DNA of 64,000 nt, taken from positions 79,348,053 through 79,412,052 of the forward strand of contig OY720344.1 in assembly GCA_963082975.1 (NCBI GenBank), written 5' to 3'. This stretch comes from Labia minor (lineage: Eukaryota > Arthropoda > Insecta > Dermaptera > Spongiphoridae). Every line of letters begins with the position of its first letter. Position 1 is the first letter of the stretch. The notes under the pieces are model-generated. The model did not search any database. It saw nothing but the letters and a program-made list of their open reading frames with translations, and was not told where the DNA came from. Made by a program: the position numbers and the translations under genes. Of the stretch, positions 1,371-37,042 are shown piece after piece.

Positions 1371-1614
1371 TTTACTATTGTTTTGATCAATTTTTTGATA
1401 ACTACTATTATCTAATAGAAAAAGAAATTAATAGCTAATTGAAAATTATGATAAATTTTTAAATGACCGCATATATCAATATCTTCCACTTTATTGGGAA
1501 TAGGATAAGTAGGTAGTTTATCTTCTTGTATAAGACTACCTAATTTTTGTTGTAGATCTAATATTATATGTAATTTATTTAAGGGGAGGCAGGGGTTAGT
1601 ATTCTGGTTGTAAT

Positions 1615-2350
1615 CTATTATCCTCGCTCGACCGTTAAAGCAGTATTGCTCCCAATCCATCTTGAGAAGCGTCTGTGTGTAATTCCGTTTCGGCATCCTG
1701 ATCGTAGATTTATAGCACTGGCTTTTCTGAAAGAATTTTTTTCAACTGTTTAAATGCTTTTCTTTGATCCTCACCGAAATTAAATTTGATATCTTTCTTC
1801 AATAGATTACTCAGAGGTCTTGCAATTACGGCGTAATTTGTTATGAATTTTCTAAAGTAACCCGTGAGACCCAAAAAACTTTGTATTTGTTTTGTGTTTT
1901 GTTGCTCTGGGTAGCGTTCGACAGCTTCACTTTTTAATAAAGATAGTTTCCCGTTGTCAATGATGTAACCCAAAAATTCAACATTCTTCTTTACGAACTG
2001 GCATTTTCTAAAATTTATTGAAGAACAATTTTCAATCGATTAATAGCTTCTTCTTCGTCTTCTGCTGATATTATTAAGTCATCCATATACGGGAGCGCAA
2101 TCTTTTGAAGGATTAAATCTTTGACTCCCTTGTTTATAAATCGTTGGAAAACTGGAGGCGAATTGGATAATCCAAATGGAACCTTACGGAACTGGAAATG
2201 TCCTCGATGAGTAACAAAGGCTGTGTATTCTATGCTTTCCTTCTCGACATACACAGAAAAAATCCATTTTTTAGGTCTAGTGTGGAGAATACTTTACCTC
2301 TTTGTAGGTTGTCTAGTTGGTCTTCAATTGATGGTTAATGATATCTATCC
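1615..2350 (-). pseudogene. gypsy RT palm/thumb and RNase H start
   Basis: The minus strand at 2254-2015 reads as RT palm with FGLSNSPPVFQRF and the catalytic YMDD box (PYMDDLIIS). After a break, 1973-1710 reads as the RT thumb and connection (FLGLTGYFRKFI, LLKKD). About 1700-1615 gives the start of RNase H (ETELHTDAS) in another frame. At least two frameshifts separate these blocks. Homology ends near 1610, beyond which I see no recognisable gypsy sequence. Confidence 0.87.
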
Positions 2351-2354
2351 TTAA

Positions 2355-3867
2355 CCCCTTACCTGCCAAGGAAAACTTACGAGATTCGCTCCCCAGTGCC
2401 ACCGGTTTTCGCACAGGCGCGCGCAGTTATGCGGTGTATCGGTGGAAAAGAAGAGACACGCTTTCCTTGATATATTTTGAAACACGGCTGTACTCATAAT
2501 CCAACATCACATTCAGTGCATTGGTATCGTGATTCACGTCGAATTTTTTTTTGGAACAAACAATGCATTTTCTCGATGCATTTTTCTTTGAAGACGTTGA
2601 TGGTACTATGTCCGGAAAGTGTCTAGCAGTAGGTCATAAAGGGCAGTCACTTTGCAACTTTTGTCGTTTTGTGGGTCCTGGTGCTGCAATATGATATTTC
2701 TCAATTATGCGATCTACCAAATTCATGCGGAAGTTGTCATTTTCAGTGCTTGGGAGTTGTTTTTTCTGTAAGATGAAGGCTTTCTAAATAGCCATATCTA
2801 ACAGGTGGCGAAATATTGTCACATAATACCTCTTCTGTCTTTTTCGAGTTGTTGGATAACAATCTAGTGCCTGATCCGCTCTATCTACCCTACCCATCTT
2901 CAAGTTATAATCTATGACAACAGCTGGTTTTATAACTTTTTTATCGGTTTCAGAGCTGTTTGCTGTATGGATAGAGCTAAGAAGAGATACATATTTTTTT
3001 GTCACGCCATTTCAATAGCGTAATTTTTCCTCTTTGGAAAGCGGCAATTTCACCTTTCTTCAAATGAAGTTTATTGAAATTTTCCGGCAAATCTCGTCGA
3101 TTAGGACGAAGAGTTCCATATACGTCAGTGATATTTTGGATAAGAAGGTCACCTATTCTGGTGAGAGATAGAAATTGTCGGCAATTACACAATAACCTTT
3201 TCTCAAAAAAGGTTCAACAAGCGTCATCACTGATTTTGTAGTGACTCCATAGTTCTCATACTTTTTATCAAAGATTGTACTCTTCCCTGTATATACAATC
3301 GTATTGTGAATATATCCTGACTTTGCTTCAGCAAGTACAAACAGTTTTACTCCAAATTGAGCTCTTTTTATTGGTATGTACTGTACCCATGACAGTCTGC
3401 CTTTGAAAAGCATCATACTTTCATCAATGCTTAGATCTCTTTCGGGTGTATAGCAAGTTGAAAATTTTTTCATCAAGTCAGAAAACACGGGCCATATTTT
3501 TCTAAGTTTCTGATTTGGATGTGAACTTTCGTCAAAATTATCATTATCCGAAAAGTGCAAAAACTTCATGATGAGCTGGAAACGATTTCTACTCATGAAT
3601 TTTCCAAAAATTGGCGTTTCGATCAGTTTATTTTTAGATCAGTAAAGAGCAATTTCTGGTTTTACTGTTATACCTTGTAAAATCATTATACCTAGAAAAA
3701 CATATATTTCCCCTGAATCTGTTGGATGACACAACTTTGTTCTTGATTTCTCTTTAGTAGCAGAGCATTGCAGGGAACCGTACTTCGGAAAGCCGTATAT
3801 ATACGCCCGGGGCAGTCAACGCATCGGCTTAGCGCGGCGTATATATACGCCCGCGGCAGGCAAGGGA
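2355..3867 (-). mobile_element. piggyBac element inserted in the gypsy RT, TTAA duplicated
   Basis: TTAA lies at 2351-2354 and 3868-3871. The ends read CCCCTTACCTGCC... and ...GGCAGGCAAGGG, an imperfect inverted repeat of about 12 bp. Subterminal CG-rich repeats (CGCGGCGTATATATACGCCC) are near the right end. Inside is a broken piggyBac transposase on the minus strand. The flanking gypsy RT resumes in register across one TTAA, which dates this insertion after the gypsy. The MITE at 11524-11709 shares both ends with it. Confidence 0.92.
2784..3596 (-). pseudogene. piggyBac transposase (DDE_Tnp_1_7) remnant
   Basis: Three overlapping minus-strand frames together cover the catalytic region: 3596-3153 (RFQLIMKFLHFSDN, DLSIDESMMLFKGR, GYCVIADNFYLSPE), 3192-2977, and 3005-2784 (YNLKMGRVDRADQ). 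In piggyBac the catalytic aspartates lie in motifs like SIDE, ADNFYT and the MGVDRADQ-type segment, all recognisable here. Frame changes near 3153-3190 and 2977-3005, and the missing N-terminal half, make it non-functional. A functional copy elsewhere would have been needed to mobilise the related MITE. Confidence 0.88.
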
Positions 3868-4121
3868 TTAATCATCTTTGCGTTTATCCGGCGATAATCA
3901 ATGCAAACGCGAGGCGATCTGCATTTCTTCCTAGTTACAACCACTTGACTGGCATATGTTGATTGACAGGGTTCGACGATTTTTTCCTTAATCCATTCTT
4001 CTACTTGTCGATCTACTATGTCTCTTTCGACTAAAGGTAAATGTCTGGGTCTATGGTATATTGGTTCTTCATCTTTTAATTTTATCTTCATTTGGACGTT
4101 TGTGTTTTTAATCTTGTTTGG
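3868..4121 (-). pseudogene. gypsy RT N-terminal fragment
   Basis: A minus-strand reading of about 85 residues carries hallmarks of the N-terminal Ty3/gypsy RT: the proline-rich YHRPRHLP segment, a run like VDRQVEEWIKEKIVEPCQST, and VCIDYRRIN, the fingers motif. It stops exactly at the TTAA where the piggyBac begins. The sequence on the far side of the piggyBac picks up at the next RT codons, so one gene was split by the insertion. Upstream it is bounded by the mariner-like fragment. Confidence 0.85.
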
Positions 4122-4127
4122 TGTAAA

Positions 4128-4590
4128 GGGTGTCCCAAAATTAACGCAAGATTTGAATTAAATAGAAAACACAGTTTTTAGTCTTTTGATTGTAATTTTT
4201 TTAATGATTCATAAAGTACATAGGATAGGGTTATTTATGGAATAACACATCGGGCAAATGGCCTCCGCGGCTTTGCATACACATACGCACTCGTTTGTCG
4301 AAATTTTCCATGACCGTTCTGCATAAATGTGGCTGAATTTCGTTGATGCAACGTTGAATCTCCTCCTTTAATGCACGTGTAGTTGTGGGCTTATTGACGT
4401 AGACCTGTGATTTTAGATATCCCCATAAAAAGAAATCTAATGGTGTTAAATCACACGATCTAGGGGGCCAATTCTGATCATCGAAACGAGAGAGTACACG
4501 ACCTGAAAATGTCTCATGCAGTAATTGAAGTGTTTCACTGGCTGTATGGCATGTGGCACCGTCTTGTTGAAACCACATATTTATGTATGT
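4128..4590 (-). mobile_element. mariner-superfamily (DD34D-like) transposase C-terminal half
   Basis: The left end GGGTGTCCCAAAATTAACGC (4128-4147) looks like a terminal repeat, but no matching inverted end exists at the right, so the element is 5' truncated. The minus strand from about 4578 to 4231 encodes the second and third catalytic segments: QQDGATCHTASETL and WPPRSCDLTPLDFFLWGYLK, continuing to a natural-looking C-terminus (GGHLPDVLFHK). The first catalytic Asp and the helix-turn-helix are missing. It sits inside the gypsy between protease and RT, where roughly 100 gypsy codons are also gone. Confidence 0.85.
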
Positions 4591-4614
4591 ATAATAAATA
4601 TGTAGTTTCACCCT

Positions 4615-5423
4615 AATCCAACTAGAGTTAATTCGGCTTTATCCAACTTTGGTGAATTTAGTTTTCTAAAGACATCTTCATTAACGAGTGTAATACAGCT
4701 TCCGGTATCAATCATTGCTTTAAAGGTATGGCTTTCTATGGTAACTTCTTTGTGACATAACTTGTTTTCTTGGTTAATTCTTTTCCTGATCTCCGTGACT
4801 GTGGCTAATGTTTTAGGACATTGTGGAGATTTATGTCCAAATTCATGGCATTTTGTTCCTTTATTCTTAAAAGGGCATTTTTCTGTTGTGTGATTTCTCT
4901 CACCACAGTTAAAGGAACGTCTCCTGAATTGTCTTAAATCTTCGACTGCTGGTTCTTTTTTTAGGCTTCTTGAAGAATAATTAGATTCATTGTGTGAGTT
5001 TTTGGCTCTTACTTGAGCACATGTTTTATTTTTCGTTTAAATTCATCAATGGATGTGGCATCTTGGAGAAAAAGTATTTCATTTTGATCCAAGAATCCAT
5101 TGATGACATAATCCATTATTACTCGATCACTAGCATCTACTAGATTCATTCTAAGAAAATAGGCAAAGGCGTCTTCATCTTTTTCTATTTTCATAGTGCC
5201 CAATTTGCGATATATCTCTGCAGCATTGACCCTTTCTGAAAATTCATTTCTCAGCAGGGTTTTCAATTTGTGCCAGGTCTTTATTCCTCGTTCGCTATCG
5301 ACCAATGTTTTAGCTAGTCCTTGTAAGGATCGTCTAGCAAGTATCAATATTTGTTGGTCTTCAAGACAGTATAGATCTGCACCATCATCTATATCCCTTA
5401 ACCATTTATTTATTGGGTAAGTG
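4615..5423 (-). pseudogene. gypsy gag-protease remnant
   Basis: Minus-strand gag-like sequence runs from about 5423 down to 5009 and includes ILARRSLQGLAK and a conserved helical block ending KIKHVLK. After a frame change, two zinc-knuckle-like motifs follow (CGERNHTTEKC at about 4890-4920; a shorter CHEFGHKSPQC at about 4830-4860). An aspartic protease active site is near 4700 (MIDTGSCITL). The knuckles lack some spacing residues, which indicates decay. The neighbouring RT fragments lie further down the same strand, so this was the 5' part of the gypsy body. It is not functional. Confidence 0.8.
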
Positions 5424-5562
5424 TTATTTATGTTTTTGACACTAAATTAAAATTAGGGTTGCGCAGAAAAAAAGGAAAAGGTGGTGCATAATTATAAAAT
5501 ACAGAACAGATATTTAAAAAAAAGTAAAACAAATTATAAAACCACTAAATATTAAAACTTTA

Positions 5563-7634: not shown

Positions 7635-8666
7635 CTATGCTCCAGAGTTTGTTCCGAGAGGGCAAACCCAGTGATTCCTGAGGGGGATCATTTCTACTTT
7701 TGGATCCGTGGTGGTCCATTTAACTAGTTGGAGACTCGAGGAGTGTCCAAAGCCAATTGATAGTTGGATCAATTGCGAAATCAGCAGAGAAGACATCCAG
7801 GCAGCGAACGGCCGTGAAACCCCCCCTTTTTTCAATTCCCGTGGTCAACAGATAAGTGCACTTATGAACACTTTGAACTATATTTATTTTAGTCTTAAAT
7901 TTTAGATTTAAGTTGATATATATATATATATATATTTAGGTGAACCTAAATATAATTAATCCATTTTCATTGAACCAAATAGATTAAATTAAAAATATTG
8001 TAAAATTTGATTACAGTTTTATTTAGCGATCTTTTCTCTATCCCGAAACCTTAATATCTTAAAACATAGACCTTTAATACAGTCCACTTAATTTTCAAGG
8101 TGCGATAGAAGTGAAGAGGTAGCTATCGTAATTTTATTAATTCCTCTTTTTAGCCTTCGAGCAAAATTAATATATATTAAGGATTCATCCCATTCCATTT
8201 CCTCCCACTTTCGATTTTCAGGAACAATAGCTTTCTATTATTTGTTTAGGCCTTACAAGCATTAAATTACATCATTAAATTTTTTGGTCCTTCTTTAGCC
8301 GGATAAAATTGAAGATTTTATCTGGTTTTAATTTATTATAAATAATTTTATATTTGTTTTAAAAGAAAGCATTTGTTCTTGAGATAGAATTGCCATAGTC
8401 CCTATAAACATTATATTCAGTTTGAATATTTTGTTACCTGACCCTTTCAACACACACAAGTAAATTTACTTTTCATTCATTTTCTTTGTCCTTTGTTTGA
8501 AAAAAGGTCGCTAAAGTTTTAAAAGGTTCTTTTAATATTAATATTTAAAAGGATCTTTTAAGAGTTAAATAAATAATTTTAGTTTATCAGGTAGATTAAT
8601 TAAAATTAAATAAAATTTATAAATTGTCGAGGGCATTTAAATTATTCAACAGAAAATTAAATATAT

Positions 8667-9632
8667 GTGCACACCATCACTTCCGCCTTGGGGGATATAT
8701 GTAAGGCCGACTCGGATGTTTTAGAAGTTCGATTGGTTCAGTTGGAATCTTCCAATGTAAGCATCAACGAGATGAACTCAGATGTTCTCTCAGATGCTTC
8801 ATTGGGAGATGAAGAAACAACTGAGATGATTAATCGGATTCTAGACATGTCGGGTGGCCTTTTATTAAAAATTAGGCAAATTAAAAACGAGCTAGAGGCT
8901 CGTAGGCAGACTTGCGATAGGTCTAAAATTATGGCAAAGCCAAGTCTGCCTCAATTAGATATTCCCAAATTCTCTGGAAAAATTGTGAATTGGGAAAGTT
9001 TTAAAAATAGTTTTTCTTCGATAGTAAGAGATCGAGTTAATTTATCCTCTCTCGAGAAATTAAATTATTTAAAAGGAGCCTTGCAAGGGGAGGCTTTAGA
9101 ATGCGTGGGCATGTATCCAATGAAGAGTGAGAATTATAAAATTATATGGGACACCCTCAACAATAGATACAATAGGGAATCGGAAATCGTGTACCGGTTT
9201 ATTGGGCAGATTATGGATATCCCTAAAGCCACTTCACAATCGGCGAATAGTTTATTCAAAGTATTTTCAACGTTTCATAACGTTTTAAACAATCTTGAGG
9301 CGTTGAAAATACAAATAGATGACTGTGACCCGCTTTGGACTTTCTCTCTTCTAGAGAAAGTTGACTACGAAACAAAGCGGGCATGGTACTTTGAAATAAA
9401 TAATTTCGAACTGCCCAGCATTAAAAAGATATTGGCCTTTTTAGAAAGGAGGTATAATTCTTGCCTAGGAGCTCAGCCAGGCCTGAGCATTGAAAAGGGC
9501 AATAAAACAAATTGGGGAAGGGAAAAACAAAATTTTAAAAAAGTGGGCAATTTTCATTCAACGGGCGGGCTCCCATTCAACTGCAGCATATGTGATAAAA
9601 AACACTCTTTAAAAGAGTGTCATAAATTTTAA
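8667..9632 (+). pseudogene. Bel/Pao gag (DUF1759-like) with first zinc knuckle
   Basis: About 320 codons, beginning in frame with a non-ATG codon; the first in-frame ATG lies near 8772. The core PKFSGKIVNWESFKNSF, LSSLEKLNYLKGALQGEAL and YDTLNNRYN-like segment (WDTLNNRYNRES) are the classic Pao-type Gag block. Near the end a knuckle-like CSICDKKHSLKECHKF appears, then a TAA and a TGA in the same frame; the next knuckle follows in that frame at 9687. Compensating frameshifts near 9625-9670 would explain this. It normally packages element RNA in particles. Confidence 0.85.
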
Positions 9633-26116: not shown

Positions 26117-29100
26117 CACTCCCTCCCCAGTGATAACGTTTAGGTATTTCTTGGGAAAGGAAACCGTTCTTCCGGATCTTGTTGTTTTCCTTTCAGGTGT
26201 ACTTTCAACTGGTAAAGAATCTTTTCTCTCTTGATTGTTGGGAAGCTTATTCAAATTTTCATTTGGAATTTCGGATTCTAAAATGAAAGCTGGTTTAATG
26301 CGATCAATGCTCACAGTTTATAATCCTGATGGTGTTATGATGACATAATTCTTTTCTCTTCGTTCTTTCACTTCATATGGTCCGTCATATGTGGGTTGTA
26401 AAGGTGTTCGAATAGCGTCATGCCGGAGGAAAATGTATTTGCATGAGTTTAATGCTGGATGAATAAAAATATTTTTTTTACTATGGTGTTCTATCTGAGT
26501 AGGTTTGAGTGATTTTATATGTTCTTTGAGTTTGTAAATGTAAGTATTGATGTCTGAGGAACATTTGCTATCTTGGATCAAATCTGATGGGAGTCTAATT
26601 GGTGAGCCATATGTCATTTCTGCTGGAGTTGCATTGTTTCCGACTATGATATATGAGCGAAGACCCATTAGTACAAGTGGCAGCTTACAATTCCAATCTT
26701 CTGTCAGATGACATTTAAGCGCACATTTCAAAGCTCTGTGCCATCTTTCTATCTTACCATTTGCGGCTGGATGGTAAGCCGTTGTTTTGATATGTTTTAT
26801 TCCAAGGATGTTTGTCAGGCTTTTGAATAGATTGCTTTCAAATTGTCTTCCTCTATCGGTTGTAATGATTTGAGGAACACCAAATCTTGAAATCCATGTT
26901 GACAGTAATGTGTGTGCAACTGTTTCAGCACTAATATCTACCATTGGTGCTGCTTCAGGCCATCTTGTAAATCGGTCAACCATGGTGAGTAAATAGCGAA
27001 AACCTTGAGACGATGGCAAGGGTCCGACAATATCAAGGTTGATGTGTGAAAATCTTGAATGCACTTCTGGGTATTTTCCGATTTCACTATTGGTATGTTT
27101 CCATACCTTACTTTTTTGACAAGGTACGCAAAATGTCGTCCATTCTTTAATCTCTTTTTTCATAGAAGGCCAAATGTATCGATTAGTTAACATCTTGATT
27201 GATCCTTTAACTCCTGGGTGTGCCAAATTATGAACTGACTCGAATATAGCTCTTCGAAATTCTCTTGGAATGTATGGACGTAGTCGATTTTGGGATGCAT
27301 CACAATTCAGGATTTCACCATTTGCAAGTGTCATTTCCACGAGTTTTAATGAAGAGTCAAGTTTCATTTTTTTGAGTTCTTCGTCATCTAGCTGTGCTTT
27401 CGCTATCTCCTCCATTGTAATATTGGGATATATGTTAATAGATTGGATACGAGAGCAAGCGTCGGCTGCTATATTTTCTTGGCCTTTTGTATAACGGAAA
27501 TCTGTAGTGAATTGTGCAATAAAACTGCTGTAGCGCATTTGTCTGGGTGTTGATTTTTCTGGTCGTTGTTGGAATATATAGGTGAGAGGTTTGTGGTCGG
27601 TATAGATGGGGAAAACTCTTCCTTCTAACATATATTGAAAGTGTTTTACAGCGGAGTATGCGGCGAGAAGTTCTCTATCATATGTGGAATAATTTTTTTG
27701 TGCGTTGTTAAGTTTTTGAGAAAAGAAAGCTAAAGGTTCTAAAATTCCTTTATTAGTTTGGTGAAGAGATGCTCCTATGGCAAAATCAGAAGCATCAACC
27801 ATTAAGATGAGAGGTAAATCTGAAGATGGATGAGCTAAAAGAGTAGCTTCTGCAAGGCTATTTTTGAGATTGTTAAATGCATCTACTTGTTCTGGCGTCC
27901 AATCTATTTTTCTCGTATCGTTTTTTTTAGCTCCCTTTAGATAATCTAGAAGAGTAATTTGTTTATTGGCCATATCAGGGACTGCACGTCGGTAAAAGTT
28001 TATTAATCCTAAAAATCTTCGTAAATCTTTAATGGTGGTTGGTAATGGGTAGTCAGAAATTAATTTTATTCTTTCCGGAAGTGGTATTATTCCTTTGCTT
28101 GTGGTGTTATAGCCTAAAAAGGGTACTTCTGAGACGCCGAAAATACATTTATTAATATTTATGTTTATATTGAATTTGTTGAGTCGATTTAGGAGTAAAT
28201 GGAGGTGATTTTTATGTTCTTCTTCATTTTTTGAGGCGATTAATATATCATCAATATAGCAAAAAACGAAATCGAAATCGCGTGTGATAGAGTCAATATA
28301 TCTCTGAAATGATTGGGCTGCGTTACGAAGTTCAAATGGAAGTCGAAGAAATTCAAACAATCCAAATGGAGTGATTACAGCTGTTTTGGGTACATCATCG
28401 GGATGAACTGGTATGTGGTGATATGCTCTAATTAAATCTATTTTAGAGAAAATTGTTTTATTGTCCAGTAGATGATTAAAATCTTGCAGATTGGATATGG
28501 GGTATCTGTCCGGTATTGTTATGTTGTTTAGTGCACGATAATCTCCACAAGGACGCCATGAGCCGTCCTTTTTGGGTACTAAATGTAGTGGACTGGACCA
28601 GCAACTTTTGGATGGTTGGCAAATTCCAAGGTTTATCATCTGTTGGAATTCGTTTTTGGCTATTTTCATTTTGTCTGGTGCTAATCTTCGTGCTTTTGCA
28701 GATGTCGGGTGATCTTTTGTGTCGATTGTGTGGTGGATGTCTAATGGAGGTGAGCCAAAATGAAGGTTTTCTCGCATAAGGTTTGGATGTTCTTTGATAA
28801 TTTCACCATATTTGATATTCGGAGGAACTAAATGGATAGATTCTACACCAGGGGCTTTAATTAGACTACCTTGTGTAGAAAGTGTTGTAGTGCAATCGAA
28901 GAGTTTTCTATTTTTTAGGTCTATAAGTAAATTATATTGTTTAATGAAATCAGCTCCAATAATTGGGGATTGTATGTCTGCAATAATAAAGTTCCAGGAG
29001 AATTTCCGTCTCAATCCAAGATCTATTTCAAAAAGACGTTCGCTATATGTATTAATTACGGTGCCGTTTGCTTCATACAGCTTTCTTTTGTTAATGTTAT

Positions 29101-29299
29101 TTCTGTCTTTTTTTAAAGGTGGAATTACTGAGAGGTCTGCCCCGGAATCAATTAAGAAATTTAAATTATTTGTTTTATCGAATATGAAAAGGCGACTTGA
29201 ATTAAATCTCCGATCATTGGTCGCCGACAATGTGGAGTATTTTAGTTTAAAGATGTATGTTGCTGAGTTGGAGGTTTGTATGAACAAGGTTTTTGGCAT
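26069..29299 (-). pseudogene. pol polyprotein (PR-RT-RNase H-IN), one in-frame stop
   Basis: A frame of 993 codons from 29299 to 26318, then a stop at 26315-26317 and 81 more codons in the same frame to 26069. Order: aspartic protease ([13 protein letters not shown]), RT ([20 protein letters not shown] and the catalytic [10 protein letters not shown]), RNase H ([20 protein letters not shown]), integrase zinc finger (HNLAHPG...CVPCQ) and DDE core ([32 protein letters not shown]). The C-terminal tail is TRSGRTVSFPKKYL followed by CGG. Expression is probably by -1 frameshift from gag. All catalytic motifs are present; only the stop and the gag frameshift look disabling. Confidence 0.93.
26117..26128 (-). 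promoter_or_regulatory. Polypurine tract
   Basis: Minus strand GGGGAGGGAGTG directly before the 3' LTR, the expected plus-strand primer site. Confidence 0.85.
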
Positions 29300-29454
29300 T
29301 TTTGGGCATGTTCTCTAAAGGTAAAATGGTACCAACATAGGGATCCGGACGGGTTGTATTTTGATTTAGATCGTGGTCTTGAACGAGAACGATGTCCACT
29401 ACTACGAGATGACGATCGGCTTCTTGCTCTAAGTTCTTGTATGACGGATGTTAA

Positions 29455-30063
29455 TTAATCTATTCGAGCTTCGAGGCTTGATATTCTATCATTGTCATGA
29501 ATTGGAGGTTGGGAAATGGTATTTTGAGAAAATATAGATGGTCCAGTAAATTCCATAATTTTATCGGCCATTGAGGCTAATATATCTAAATCATCTTTAC
29601 TTGAGGCTAAAATAGCTCTTATATTAACAGGTAATCTTTGTAAAAAAATTGGTTTTAAAAATTCATCTTTGATTTGCGTACCTGCTAATGTTCTCATTTC
29701 TCTCAATAATTGTGTAGGTTTTTTGTCACCTAATTCTAATTCGGATATTAATTTGTTTGCCTTTCGGCCCTCCGATTCTTCGAATTCGCGTATTAATCGG
29801 TCTTTTAAATCGGTATACGGCGTTTGAGATAATGGTTTAATTAAAAAGTCCGAAATTGTTTCAGCTATTTCAGGCTCAAGGGATCCAATTATATAATTAA
29901 ATTTTGTAGTTTCGGATATTATGCCAACGGTCTGGAACTGAGATTCAATTTGTAAAAACCATACCTTGAGATTTTTTCGCCAGAATTGTGGAATCTTAAC
30001 AGAGACTCTTGCTAATTCTATCTCATTCAGTTGTTTTGTAGTTTGATCGATTGTTGTTGCCAT
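29455..30063 (-). pseudogene. gag of the CsRn1-type element, frameshifted before the knuckle
   Basis: The minus-strand ATG at 30063 begins MATTIDQTTKQLNEIELARVS. The core PQFWRKNLKVWFLQIESQF and the following helical region resemble the Gag of CsRn1/Micropia-like elements. The frame stops at 29455 after SSLEARID; reading on in the next frame gives an Arg/Ser-rich linker and then [18 protein letters not shown], the C-H-C-C knuckle. A single-base indel near 29458 therefore separates the knuckle from the rest. Gag would assemble particles and bind RNA. Confidence 0.87.
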
Positions 30064-30085
30064 ATTTCTTCTTAATGAGATGTCC

Positions 30086-30100
30086 AAATCGGGGTCACCA
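30086..30100 (-). promoter_or_regulatory. Primer-binding site, tRNA-Trp
   Basis: Minus strand TGGTGACCCCGATTT, one base after the 5' LTR. It complements the 3' end of tRNA-Trp (…CGGGGTCACCA) over its first 12 bases. Confidence 0.8.
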
Positions 30101-30101
30101 A

Positions 30102-30457
30102 TGTAAGGTTTTTATGGTTGAATGGTAACAATGGTAATGTATGGTGAAATAATATATAAAAATATAAAAAAATGTATTTTATTGGAAACTTAATTTTATA
30201 ATAATAAAAAAATTTGCTACGTGAAAATAAACACAAAAAGGAACTCACTTCAAGGAATGACAACTTGACAAATTTTATTTTAATTAAATTATTTCATTTT
30301 AATTAAATTATTTTATTCGAATTAAATTATTCTATTTTAACTAAATTATTTCATTTCAATTAAATTATTTTACTTCAATTAAATTATTTTAATTAGATAA
30401 TTTTAATTGTCAATGTTTTGTGTTGAGCGGGATTTTCGAATTTGGCTGGCCGCCACA
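30102..30457 (-). repeat. 5' LTR of the CsRn1-type element
   Basis: 356 bp, same ends as 25780-26116, with an added ACTTCAATTAAATTATTTT unit and one GCC/GGC difference near its start. Confidence 0.93.
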
Positions 30458-33122: not shown

Positions 33123-33126
33123 TATG

Positions 33127-33664
33127 TATAGGATCTGAAAAAATGAAATTTATTTTATTTTATTATTTTCCCATGAAGATGTTCTCGGAGCGACTAAGCA
33201 AATTCCTGTTGCGCCGGGACATATATTTAAAACCTCGCTACCCCCTCTTAGAAGCTTTCGATTGGCTATAATAAGCTGGCCATTCATTGGGTCTTCGTTC
33301 AGCGCCTAGCACGCTATTGGTTGTCGAGAGTCCCCACCACTCCACGTAGATATCGCCAGCCGGGTATAAAAAGCAGTGAAGCAGGCTAGCTTGCCAGTAG
33401 CAGTTGTGATTCAAGACGTTAAGAAGAACATATACGAAGAACGAAGGACCGACGATTTCCAAGACGTTTATTTTTATCTGTGTATATATTTTTTACTAAT
33501 ATTTCTAAACAAAAACCATATATTTTTTGCTACACTTTTCAATAAAAACGATATATTTTTTGCTAATACTTTTCATCAAAAACGATATTATTTTTGCTAC
33601 CTTTTTCTTCAAAAACGATATTTTTTAATATATCTGCTTCACTATCGAAGCCACCAACCCTACA
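33127..33664 (+). repeat. 5' LTR of the chimeric element
   Basis: Begins TATAGGATCTG, ends CCCTACA. It has a CCAGCCGGGTATAAAAAGC promoter and, in its second half, four imperfect repeats of AAAAACGATATATTTTTTGCTA. The 5' edge is set by the TATG duplication; it lacks the usual TG start. Confidence 0.9.
33364..33371 (+). promoter_or_regulatory. LTR TATA box
   Basis: GTATAAAAA within CCGGGTATAAAAAGCAG, with CCAAT-like ATTGG upstream (33246 and 33317). Transcription probably starts near 33395-33402. The same box is in the 3' LTR at 36738. Confidence 0.75.
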
Positions 33665-33690
33665 ATTTGAGGGCTCAGTCCGAGATTGAA
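33665..33690 (+). promoter_or_regulatory. Possible primer-binding site
   Basis: Directly after the LTR: TTTGAGGGCTCAGTCCGAG. It resembles the complement of the tRNA-Pro 3' end (TGGGGGCTCGTCCGGG) but with mismatches and one extra base, so the assignment is tentative. Confidence 0.4.
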
Positions 33691-33792
33691 GAATTATTAC
33701 CCCTAATAACCACGAAGAAACAAGAGCCAAACGAGGAAATATCCAGTCTTCAAGATACAAGTCGCAAGATTCAAGTTTCAAGATTTTTCTAA

Positions 33793-36465
33793 ATCTTTCT
33801 CCTTTTTCTCCTTATCCCCTCAGTGAATTGGAAACGACCCACGTTAATCAATTCATTGGGCACCGAAGGACCATCACGCTGTCAAATCCTATTTTCATTT
33901 AATATTTCCATACATACGCCTTTCAAAATAACTTCCTTTGAAACTATCCCATTCGTTCAACGTCAGCTAGCTTTGGCTGAATTCAAGATTATAAAAAGTT
34001 TGCACAAAATTCTTTACGACGAAGAAGCCGATCGAAAAAGCCGTAGCAAAGTAAAACGATTTGCTGGATTTGATTTCGAAAGAGAGTCAGAAGAATTCAA
34101 GAATCGACTTGAAACGATGAACTCTTTAAACACAGCCACTTTAATTAAAATTGGAAACATTTTAAATATAGCTGAAAATTCTAAAGACGACATAATAAAC
34201 GCTATTACAGATGTTTTATTCAATTTGGCTGAATTTGGAAGATCATTAAATGAATCGGAAGCAGAAGAAGATGAAGAAGAAGAAGAAGAAGAAAACGAAG
34301 AAGAAGCAACTGAAGAAGTACGCCAAGTTCCATCTTCATTAAGATATCCCTCTGCTGTCAACATAAGAGATATCGAAGACTTGGTAAAGAAATTTGATGG
34401 TGCTAAAACATATTCAGTTAACCGCTGGATACAAGATATAGAAGACGAAGCAGACATCCATTTATTAGACGAAAGACAAACGATGATACTCGCAAGAAGA
34501 TGTCTCACAGGACTTGCAAAATTGTATTTCGAAAATACAAAAGGTGTCAAGACATGGAGAGATATGAAAACAAGCCTGAAAAATCAATTTTCCCCAAAGA
34601 TCGACGAAATCGAGATTCATCGACAATTGGGAAACAGGAAAATGAAAAGAGGCGAAGATGCAACTGAATATTTTATTCATATGCAAAAGATTGCGAATCA
34701 AGGTGATATAAAGCCGAAATTATTAATTGAATATATAATCAATGGAATCGAAGATCCTCATAGCAAAATGTTTCTAGTTGGAACAAAAACAAAACTAAAC
34801 ATGTTGGGCGACTTTATAAAAGAAGCATCAATAACAAGAAACCCTGTTGAAAGAAAAGATACTAATCAGAAGCATACTGTCAAAGAAAAGAAAAAAGAAA
34901 TCACAAGATGTTTCAACTGTGGAGACACTTCACATTTTTCTAACGAGTGTCCATCTAAGAACAGGGGCGTCAAATGTTTTAAATGTAATAATTTTGGACA
35001 TAAATCATTTGATTGCCCCACTAAGAAAAAAGAAATATATAAAATGGAAACAAAACCGTCAACTAGAAATCACAAGATCGTATCAATCCAAAATAAGGAA
35101 ATAAATGCCCTTATCGACACGGGTAGCAGTTTGACATTCTTGTCAAAAAATATTCATAATGAAATCAACTCGCCTCAATTATCCAAATCTGACGTGACTT
35201 TAACTGGCCTAGGAAAAACGACAACCAATTTGTTGGGTTATTTCCAAACAAAAATAACAATCGACGGAGATGAATTTCCAACAAAAGTATACGTCGTTAA
35301 CAATAACGCCATGAACGAAGATGTAATCATAGGCGACGATGTGCTTAAGCAAGCCACTCTTACAATCTCCCAAGAATATATCAAGTTGAAGAAAATTAAT
35401 GATTTAGAAGAATACGCCATCATGTACATCAAAGCAGAAGACTCTGATAAAAAAGATGATAAAAAATCTGAATCAGTTTCAGCTGACGACAATGATAAAG
35501 AAAATGAAAAAACCGAATCAAAAAAAGAAAATGAAATTAAATCTGATGAAACATCTCCAGGAGAAACAAAAGAAGAAGAGAAAAAAGACGAAAGCACCTC
35601 GATGGAAACGGATGAAGTGAAAAAATCTAAAGAAGTGACAAAAGAAAAAAAAACAGAATTCGAAACTAAGTCAAAAGAAGAGAAAACAGAGAAAATTGAT
35701 ACGAAAGAAGCCAAAGTAAATGAATCCACAGAAAAAAAAGATGAAACACCAAAAGAAAAAGAAACAACTAAAGAGGAAAAAGATGTGAAAAAGGCAGAAG
35801 AAACCAAACCAGAAGTTAAAGAAGAAAAAGAAAAAGAGGTCTCTTCTGAAGAGAAGAAGAAAGAAGAGAGTGAAAATGAAAAGATGGAGGTAGAAAAAGA
35901 AGAAGAAACTGATAAGAAAGAATATGATGAAAAAGTGGAAGTCAAAGAAGAAAAGAATGAAGATGAAGATGAAGAACCTCCAAAGACTGATAATGAAAAA
36001 AAGACTCAAAGTAAAGTTAATGAAGAGGATAAATCAAATGAAGGTGAATCAATGGAAGTTGATAAGGATGAAAGCACTTCAGAAGATCAAAATAAAACAA
36101 TTCGTGGAGAAGATTTTGATCCCAATGATAAAATTTTTGATCTTGATAAAATACGAACTACAAGTAAAGTTAAAACTGAAGATAGTATATTAAATAAAGA
36201 AAAGGAAGACTTTAATTTTTATGAGGTTAGTGAATTAAAAGAAATAATGAATGTAAATTTAGATTTAGAAACAGACATAAATAATTTATCCGAATCACAA
36301 GATATGGATGATAAGAAAAGTATATTTGATGTGCAATCTAATAAACTATTTTATCCTGCTCATTATGTGAAGAAAGAAATTGATAAATATCGAAAAAGGA
36401 AGAAGGTGAAGTGGAGAGACAAGATAGAATGTTGTGAAGGTGCCGATGACAACTACGAGAATTGA
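33793..36465 (+). CDS. Gag-protease polyprotein with N-terminal DEK-like domain and Lys/Glu-rich tail
   Basis: The frame is open from 33793 (after a TAA at 33790) to 36465. Numbering from 33823: residues 33-140 resemble the DNA-binding N-terminal part of DEK (PFKI, SLHKILY, KRFAGFDFERESEEFK, LIKIGNILNI, then a closing helix). Residues 145-165 are almost all Glu. Residues 180-345 are gypsy Gag (ILARRCLTGLAK, GVKTWRDMKTSLKNQF). CCHC knuckles are at 363-376 and 385-398, and the protease DTG at 432-434. Residues about 538-770 are Lys/Glu-rich, and a short basic end follows. No RT motif is present. The first in-frame ATG is at 34117, inside the DEK-like part, so initiation must use splicing, a non-AUG codon or that internal ATG. 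Gag would form particles; the DEK-like part could bind chromatin or DNA (inference). Confidence 0.85.
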   Translation: MFLLFLLIPSVNWKRPTLINSLGTEGPSRCQILFSFNISIHTPFKITSFETIPFVQRQLALAEFKIIKSLHKILYDEEADRKSRSKVKRFAGFDFERESEEFKNRLETMNSLNTATLIKIGNILNIAENSKDDIINAITDVLFNLAEFGRSLNESEAEEDEEEEEEENEEEATEEVRQVPSSLRYPSAVNIRDIEDLVKKFDGAKTYSVNRWIQDIEDEADIHLLDERQTMILARRCLTGLAKLYFENTKGVKTWRDMKTSLKNQFSPKIDEIEIHRQLGNRKMKRGEDATEYFIHMQKIANQGDIKPKLLIEYIINGIEDPHSKMFLVGTKTKLNMLGDFIKEASITRNPVERKDTNQKHTVKEKKKEITRCFNCGDTSHFSNECPSKNRGVKCFKCNNFGHKSFDCPTKKKEIYKMETKPSTRNHKIVSIQNKEINALIDTGSSLTFLSKNIHNEINSPQLSKSDVTLTGLGKTTTNLLGYFQTKITIDGDEFPTKVYVVNNNAMNEDVIIGDDVLKQATLTISQEYIKLKKINDLEEYAIMYIKAEDSDKKDDKKSESVSADDNDKENEKTESKKENEIKSDETSPGETKEEEKKDESTSMETDEVKKSKEVTKEKKTEFETKSKEEKTEKIDTKEAKVNESTEKKDETPKEKETTKEEKDVKKAEETKPEVKEEKEKEVSSEEKKKEESENEKMEVEKEEETDKKEYDEKVEVKEEKNEDEDEEPPKTDNEKKTQSKVNEEDKSNEGESMEVDKDESTSEDQNKTIRGEDFDPNDKIFDLDKIRTTSKVKTEDSILNKEKEDFNFYEVSELKEIMNVNLDLETDINNLSESQDMDDKKSIFDVQSNKLFYPAHYVKKEIDKYRKRKKVKWRDKIECCEGADDNYEN
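33795..33822 (+). promoter_or_regulatory. Splice-acceptor-like tract before the DEK-like coding part
   Basis: A run of nearly pure pyrimidines (CTTTCTCCTTTTTCTCC...) ends CCCCTCAG at 33822, a textbook acceptor. It lies between the TAA at 33790 and the frame that carries DEK homology. It could join an upstream leader with an ATG, or be a leftover of a captured host intron edge. Confidence 0.5.
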
Positions 36466-36485
36466 CATTCGGGTCGAATGTCACC

Positions 36486-36500
36486 AAAGAGGGGGTGAGT
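36486..36500 (+). promoter_or_regulatory. Polypurine tract of the chimeric element
   Basis: AAAGAGGGGG (36486-36495), then TGAGT, then the 3' LTR. The five bases between tract and LTR are unusual; if TGAGT belonged to the LTR, the 5' LTR would have lost it. Confidence 0.75.
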
Positions 36501-37038
36501 TATAGGATCTGAAAAAATGAAATTTATTTTATTTTATTATTTTCCCATGAAGATGTTCTCGGAGCGACTAAGCAAATTCCTGTTGCGCCGGGACATATAT
36601 TTAAAACCTCGCTACCCCCTCTTAGAAGCTTTCGATTGGCTATAATAAGCTGGCCATTCATTGGGTCTTCGTTCAGCGCCTAGCACGCTATTGGTTGTCG
36701 AGAGTCCCCACCACTCCACGTAGATATCGCCAGCCGGGTATAAAAAGCAGTGAAGCAGGCTAGCTTGCCAGTAGCAGTTGTGATTCAAGACGTTAAGAAG
36801 AACATATACGAAGAACGAAGGACCGAAGATTTCCAAGACGTTTATTTTTATCTGTGTATATATTTTTTGCTAATATTTCTAAACAAAAACCATATATTTT
36901 TTGCTACACTTTTCAATAAAAACGATATATTTTTTGCTAATACTTTTCATCAAAAACGATATTATTTTTGCTACCTTTTTCTTCAAAAACGATATTTTTT
37001 AATATATCTGCTTCACTATCGAAGCCACCAACCCTACA
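36501..37038 (+). repeat. 3' LTR of the chimeric element
   Basis: 538 bp, aligned end to end with 33127-33664. Differences noted: C/A in ACCGA(C/A)GATTTCC and A/G in TTTTTT(A/G)CTAATATTTC. Confidence 0.92.
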
Positions 37039-37042
37039 TATG

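Follow-up and report, generated by a model that had tools for sequence, protein, structure and literature searches.

A putative non-autonomous Ty3/gypsy element of Labia minor joining a DEK-type Gag N-terminus to a fragment of host NASP

What is a retrotransposon without pol doing with pieces of two chromatin proteins, and did it take both of them from its host? The question is raised by a long terminal repeat (LTR) element in a 64,000-nucleotide stretch of the Labia minor genome (contig OY720344.1 of assembly GCA_963082975.1, positions 79,348,053 to 79,412,052 of the forward strand), hereafter the window, where the element occupies positions 33127-37038 with its parts on the + strand. A first-pass annotation, made from the sequence alone, described a gypsy Gag that had acquired a DEK-like chromatin domain. 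In our analysis this is very probably a non-autonomous Ty3/gypsy element whose Gag begins with a DEK-type domain and which carries, in frame and where pol would be, an acidic fragment of the host NASP gene. A single Gag protein of a selfish element family would then unite two chromatin-protein modules. Sequence comparisons point to the first module as inherited within the Gag clade; the host capture, which the first-pass annotation overlooked, is the NASP tail.

The two LTRs (538 bp each) differ at 2 positions and TATG is found on both sides of the element, so that the matched repeats and 4-bp duplication of the first description hold. Between the repeats a single stop-to-stop frame (33793-36465, 890 codons) encodes, as annotated, Gag, two CCHC knuckles and an aspartyl protease, without pol. 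The Pfam scan of this frame matched the knuckles at 1.7e-8 in two stretches and the protease at 5.3e-8, and the Gag core matched Retrotrans_gag at 1.7e-4, with 22.1 bits for a cut-off of 24.1. The parts of the element are as follows.

33123..33126 (left) and 37039-37042 (right), no strand: target-site duplication TATG, read from the sequence by flank comparison
33127..33664, +: 5' LTR, 538 bp, from LTR comparison
33665..33690, +: primer-binding-site-like stretch, resembling by eye the corresponding stretch of L066 and L064
33928..34251, +: DEK-type pseudo-SAP/SAP domain, Gag N-terminus, from profile and sequence comparison
34252..34324, +: acidic linker, a run of E and D
34369..34870, +: Gag core (Retrotrans_gag match 34537-34749), from Pfam and copy comparison
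34909..34950, +: first CCHC knuckle, from Pfam and reading
34975..35016, +: second CCHC knuckle, from Pfam and reading
35080..35367, +: retroviral-type aspartyl protease, from Pfam
35440..36150, +: in-frame host NASP piece, coding sequence (CDS) nucleotides about 384-1324 with internal deletions, from alignment to host gene L071
36151..36465, +: post-NASP tail and stop, parts common to L062 and L064
36486..36500, +: polypurine tract, by eye
36501..37038, +: 3' LTR, 538 bp, from LTR comparison

Paired LTRs and a short target duplication are those of a Ty3/gypsy element. Of the order protease (PR), reverse transcriptase (RT), RNase H, integrase, it has the protease only, with neither RT nor integrase of its own to make it autonomous: Pfam revealed none, and tblastn with pol queries from two autonomous relatives gave no match within the element to RT, RNase H or integrase. 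We extended the search to the genome (604 Mb in 71 contigs; L-numbers designate loci taken from it). Copy counts are lower bounds, as only the best candidates were scored: 115 of 1405 for Gag-PR, 150 of 241 for the DEK-type domain and 40 of 306 in a further search. Among the 115, 37 loci were at least 90% identical to the window Gag-PR over the aligned part, and their longest frame has 908 residues. Judged by its sequences, the window family is non-autonomous, as first proposed, and the 2 LTR mismatches support the recent mobility also claimed for this element. When the flanks of 30 LTR loci were compared, the window's two among them, 19 had identical 4-bp sequences to the left and right of one LTR; most of these lie in TA runs, where matching 4 bp carries little information. 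In an uncontrolled count, many insertions among L001-L030 lie in TA-rich or (TA)n targets, which suggests a target preference. One scan of viral contigs gave no relatives beyond this genome.

Lacking a start codon for Gag, the window copy is probably impaired: the first in-frame ATG, at 34117, lies inside the DEK-type domain, with none upstream in frame. In each of the 23 other copies read, an ATG stands where the domain begins. These 23 also led us to reject non-AUG initiation as a family trait. Intact copies exist, and our finding describes the family better than it does a working element in the window.

Is the N-terminal domain related to DEK? The annotation had placed it at residues 33-140 counted from 33823; the resemblance is indeed above chance, but the domain is better placed at 33928-34251. 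Searched with phmmer against all PDB chains, it matched DEK alone up to E=10, in three sequences, the best at 5e-6. A profile of nine element domains, from which human and host DEK were excluded, reached DEK at 2.1e-14; next came two sequences of the unrelated PcApiGT (0.0012) and then a permease (2.9). On this profile the SAP exon of the host dek gene (L068, located through DEK_C) scores 54.8 bits, while the best among 1000 shuffles reaches 10.1, and hhalign of the element profile with host and human DEK gives 97.7% and 1.9e-12. In leave-one-out comparisons each of the nine domains obtained 34.0-107.7 bits on the rest (L077 lowest) for a best shuffle of 7.0-12.8 among 1000. Apart from the studied element, none of the window's 185 frames of at least 60 residues matched the DEK profile above shuffles.

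The Pfam check suggested by the annotation left the N-terminus of the window frame without a match. This miss is no evidence against DEK, because Pfam also fails to recognize a SAP domain in the dek exon of the host. We conclude from these comparisons that the domain is of DEK type: it shares length, order, conserved motif and profile similarity with DEK (PDB 2JX3, 9L1X, 8KCY). It differs in its company, since the element frames scanned are without DEK_C; three genome loci exceed the DEK_C cut-off, none of them an element by reading. As candidates for host dek, L067 (presumably a slingshot phosphatase, from its reading) and L069 were rejected in favor of L068, and L063, at first a candidate for a host dek exon, was set aside by reading, as it is surrounded by RT- and integrase-like fragments.

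The domain search (identities from 100% down to 25%) argues against an acquisition of the DEK module by this element, as the annotation had it. Two loci, L065 (1446 residues) and L066 (1398 residues), are single frames combining the DEK-type domain with CCHC, PR, RT, RNase H and integrase, with the PR-RT-RNase H-integrase order of the clade, and are enclosed by repeats with a spacing of 5054 bp. The domain also occurs in five other Gag types (L061/L080, L074, L076, L077 and L081). Because autonomous elements and these other types carry it, we consider it inherited and not captured by the window element. Among nine further N-termini read, five are DEK-type (L074, L076, L077, L080, which is of the L061 type and whose open frame begins within the domain, and L081); in the other four (L073, L075, L078, L079) a canonical SAP motif takes its place. 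L073, part of a Gag-Pol-sized frame of 1375 residues, matches Pfam SAP at 1.6e-7, and L075, L078 and L079 are near-identical by reading. A SAP-type N-terminal module thus appears usual in this Gag clade, the window element having inherited the DEK-type form. The annotation had named a normal Gag domain with no relation to DEK as the outcome that would undo its reading; the domain is a normal part of the Gag clade, yet it is related to DEK.

Two other loci bear on this clade. At L061 (965-3463) a non-autonomous DEK-Gag element has two knuckles and a long tail, with no protease match up to E=1. In the window itself, 1599-5446 (-) holds a broken relative of L066, with Gag-PR and pol pieces 40-70% identical to it, together with a piggyBac-type transposase piece (3153-3638, matching Pfam DDE_Tnp_1_7) and a piece that reads as mariner-like (4231-4638).

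The tail of the window frame has a different origin. Labia minor has a single NASP gene, L071, encoding a complete 701-residue protein with its tetratricopeptide repeats (TPRs); it is the only SHNi-TPR (PF10516) match in the genome, and the element piece has no such match. By blastn the element piece aligns with L071 with 87.1% identity along 551 bp and 78.7% along 460 bp; within its first 295 bp the window piece (L031 being the window's own locus) is 96.6% identical to the host gene. Loci L033, L035 and L045 reach 95.9-96.4% over 274-293 bp, and L049 88.6% over 289 bp. Synonymous and nonsynonymous divergence between window piece and host are 0.078 (dS) and 0.051 (dN) over 236 codons. NASP sequence is present in 22 of the 24 loci L031-L054, within 1.5 kb on each side, L040 and L054 being without it. 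The piece derives from the acidic region that interrupts TPR2; in contrast to host NASP, TPR1, TPR3, TPR4 and the C-terminus fall outside it, and part of TPR2 is retained only in copies like L028, L062 and L064. With a close donor in the same genome, the stretch 35440-36150 is, on this DNA-level evidence, a host-gene capture made in frame. The direction from host to element follows from L071 being complete with its TPRs and from the L062 piece being recognizable as NASP of other species (its tail matches NASP structures at 5.2e-5). No clear host gene emerged as source of the post-NASP tail: a search up to E=1 returned 124 matches, of which the strong ones fall within element-like frames.

Was NASP captured once? 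Locus L062 and the autonomous L066 are 90.7% identical across 2450 bp that run from the LTR to Gag-PR inclusive; L064 matches L066 at 92.4% across 1243 bp, here from the LTR to the DEK-type domain inclusive. L062 and the window element share 40% identity in Gag-PR. The NASP alignments of L062 and L064 end at CDS nucleotide 1509 and continue into the same sequence as the window-family copy L028, while in the other window-family copies examined NASP ends at nucleotides 1323-1326. Alignment starts vary (about nucleotides 345-351, 384, 431, 506, 515, 576 and 802). Because L028 and L062/L064 share both the 3' end of NASP and the sequence that follows, a single capture, followed by deletions and by exchange between two gypsy lineages, is the simplest reading of these boundaries. 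The exchange probably occurred by template switching.

A search with the 138-residue L062 tail gave 90 rows, 74 of which match the whole query at 92% or more, some of these matches being units of tandem arrays. The frames of these 74 fall into 57 of 457-619 residues, 14 of 887-1123 and 3 under 400. We read seven of the 57 short-frame copies (L064, L082-L087): in all seven a charged middle of 67-72% D, E, K and R separates a terminal DEK-type domain from a NASP-derived tail at the opposite end, and neither CCHC nor a protease-site motif is present; a Pfam scan of L064 up to E=1 was blank. Elements reduced to two chromatin pieces make the role of these pieces in mobility experimentally approachable. 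NASP-bearing elements also occur in head-to-tail arrays, spaced 3632 bp in L062 (1-7000) and 2121 bp at C5:65615676-65622452.

How, then, might such an element work? This gypsy lineage carries the DEK-type pseudo-SAP/SAP module at the start of its Gag. The family encodes its own Gag, with protease in some copies, and would receive RT and integrase in trans from another element. An acidic NASP fragment would have been captured in this genome, most simply once, and would now reside in two lineages. The DEK-type module would serve a Gag function, be it nucleic-acid or chromatin contact or assembly, and the NASP piece may contact histones, most likely the linker histone, or be a tolerated passenger. 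The NASP acidic region is reportedly required to bind linker histone, though not H3-H4 in vitro (PMC9122598, PMC4082323).

Selection was gauged by the ratio of nonsynonymous to synonymous differences (pN/pS), a simple pairwise count on related copies without a significance test. The ratio is 0.25 for the DEK-type module (24 copies) and 0.15 for Gag (20 copies). The first 63 codons of the module stand at 0.10. An initial upstream control (0.90) mixed in copies with unrelated upstream sequence and was redone on the 17 of 24 copies where it is homologous: the first 63 codons are at 0.08, the next 45 at 0.51 and 45 upstream codons at 1.01. These counts indicate that the module is under purifying selection. 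The short-copy module against L066 gives about 0.16 (short-class values come from DEK rows of six and NASP rows of five of the seven short copies, plus L062).

Several observations weigh against the scheme outlined above. The autonomous relatives have only about 40% of Gag-PR in common with the window family, which makes them uncertain candidates as Pol donor. The last 45 codons of the module reach a pN/pS of only 0.56, and among six short copies the module is at 0.75, a value that comes from 0.9 nonsynonymous and 0.3 synonymous differences per pair. Human DEK contacts nucleosomal DNA through nine residues (PMC12263440); of these positions three are basic in the window domain and 3-5 in six elements, for seven in host DEK and all nine in human; net charge of the domain is -3 to +4 in elements against +6 and +8 in host and human DEK. 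The NASP part is weakly constrained, with pN/pS of 0.52-0.65 among copies (a set including an L033 row that is apparently misaligned or frameshifted) and 0.60-0.89 against the host, and the absence of stops from it falls short of significance (2.56 expected, P0 0.077).

A passenger NASP tail on a working Gag remains as likely a reading, because of this weak constraint, the non-significant absence of stops, the 0.75 among short copies and the poor DEK contacts. We give an even chance to the tail being neutral filler from template switching, with only the DEK-Gag (and protease) of importance. Differing NASP alignment starts and the failure to retain a full TPR2 favor it, as does the post-NASP tail (36151-36465), with 6.0 nonsynonymous against 0.3 synonymous differences per pair in four copies only, L015 and L028 having dropped out of the set of six. 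However, the frame stays open through K/E-rich sequence close to stops (not significant, as given above), acidity is retained (net charge per 100 residues of -15.2 in the window piece and -12.7 in the host), and the full tail query is matched in 74 of the 90 rows.

What the DEK-type module does is a separate matter. The annotation suggested that it tethers Gag or the integration complex to chromatin. MLV p12 and foamy virus Gag engage nucleosomes and are not known to use a DEK-type domain for it. By analogy with retroviral Gag tethers (PMC6021111), a part of Gag that engages chromatin would play the same role here, bringing the integration complex to nucleosomes. This is possible, though we find it doubtful. 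DEK homology, strong constraint on the first 63 codons and the canonical SAP motif at the same place in another branch of the clade speak for it, as do positions 107 and 124 (human numbering), K or R in all six elements and basic in all eight sequences compared. However, most DEK contact positions are not basic in the elements, which makes DEK-like DNA binding doubtful and weakens tethering in the manner of DEK. Alternatively, the module might be a Gag assembly or RNA-binding domain that kept its fold and lost DNA binding, a reading we hold as tentatively: loss of basic contacts with strong constraint elsewhere and a position before the Gag core agree with it, whereas the sister branch, with its canonical SAP, suggests contact with nucleic acid.

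A bolder proposal would combine both parts in a chromatin effector. DEK attaches to the dyad of the nucleosome and to linker DNA (PMC12263440). Linker histone does likewise; a DEK-type module with a NASP acidic region may then strip or hold linker histone, opening or marking chromatin for integration or for escape from silencing. We regard this as quite improbable; if true, the short elements with only these two parts would be selfish elements spreading a borrowed chromatin regulator. Least probable is that the DEK resemblance is a convergence of SAP-like helical Gag domains: identity to host DEK is low (16%) and single-sequence BLASTP of the window domain against the host dek exon gives no match, but the profile match covers both pseudo-SAP and SAP halves with the F.GF motif in register, shuffles fall far short of it, and the canonical-SAP Gag pair goes unmatched by the DEK profile (a weak control, of two near-identical sequences). 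Since single-sequence BLASTP gives nothing, the link between element domain and host dek is an old one.

Retaining the reading of a DEK-type Gag with a captured NASP piece, we compared it with known systems. The chromatin module of chromoviruses sits in the integrase, whereas here it is in Gag. The likeness to these chromodomain-bearing elements (PMC2864245) is that of a gypsy element with a module from a chromatin protein. Maize Bs1 (PMC13317346) resembles our element as an LTR element with host-gene pieces in its coding region; here, in contrast, a histone-chaperone piece is joined to a Gag already equipped with a DEK module, at many loci and in two lineages. Our literature searches found no paper joining DEK domain, retrotransposon and Gag. 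Queries for gypsy, Ty3 or retrotransposon with DEK phrases had no DEK phrase among the matches listed, NASP's full name with retrotransposon gave no capture as judged by title or abstract start, and SAP domain with gypsy, Gag and retrotransposon returned only a retroviral-integrase paper. A gypsy clade with DEK-type or canonical SAP Gag N-termini offers a testable link between Gag and chromatin outside retroviruses, and the NASP capture is a young case with donor gene, boundaries and many copies in one genome, the captured gene being a histone chaperone.

Elsewhere in the window, another gypsy element at 26318-30111 (-) has a 998-residue pol frame and a Gag frame matching DUF7041. A Gag-like frame at 8661-9632 (+) matches DUF1759, and we take it to be of BEL/Pao type.

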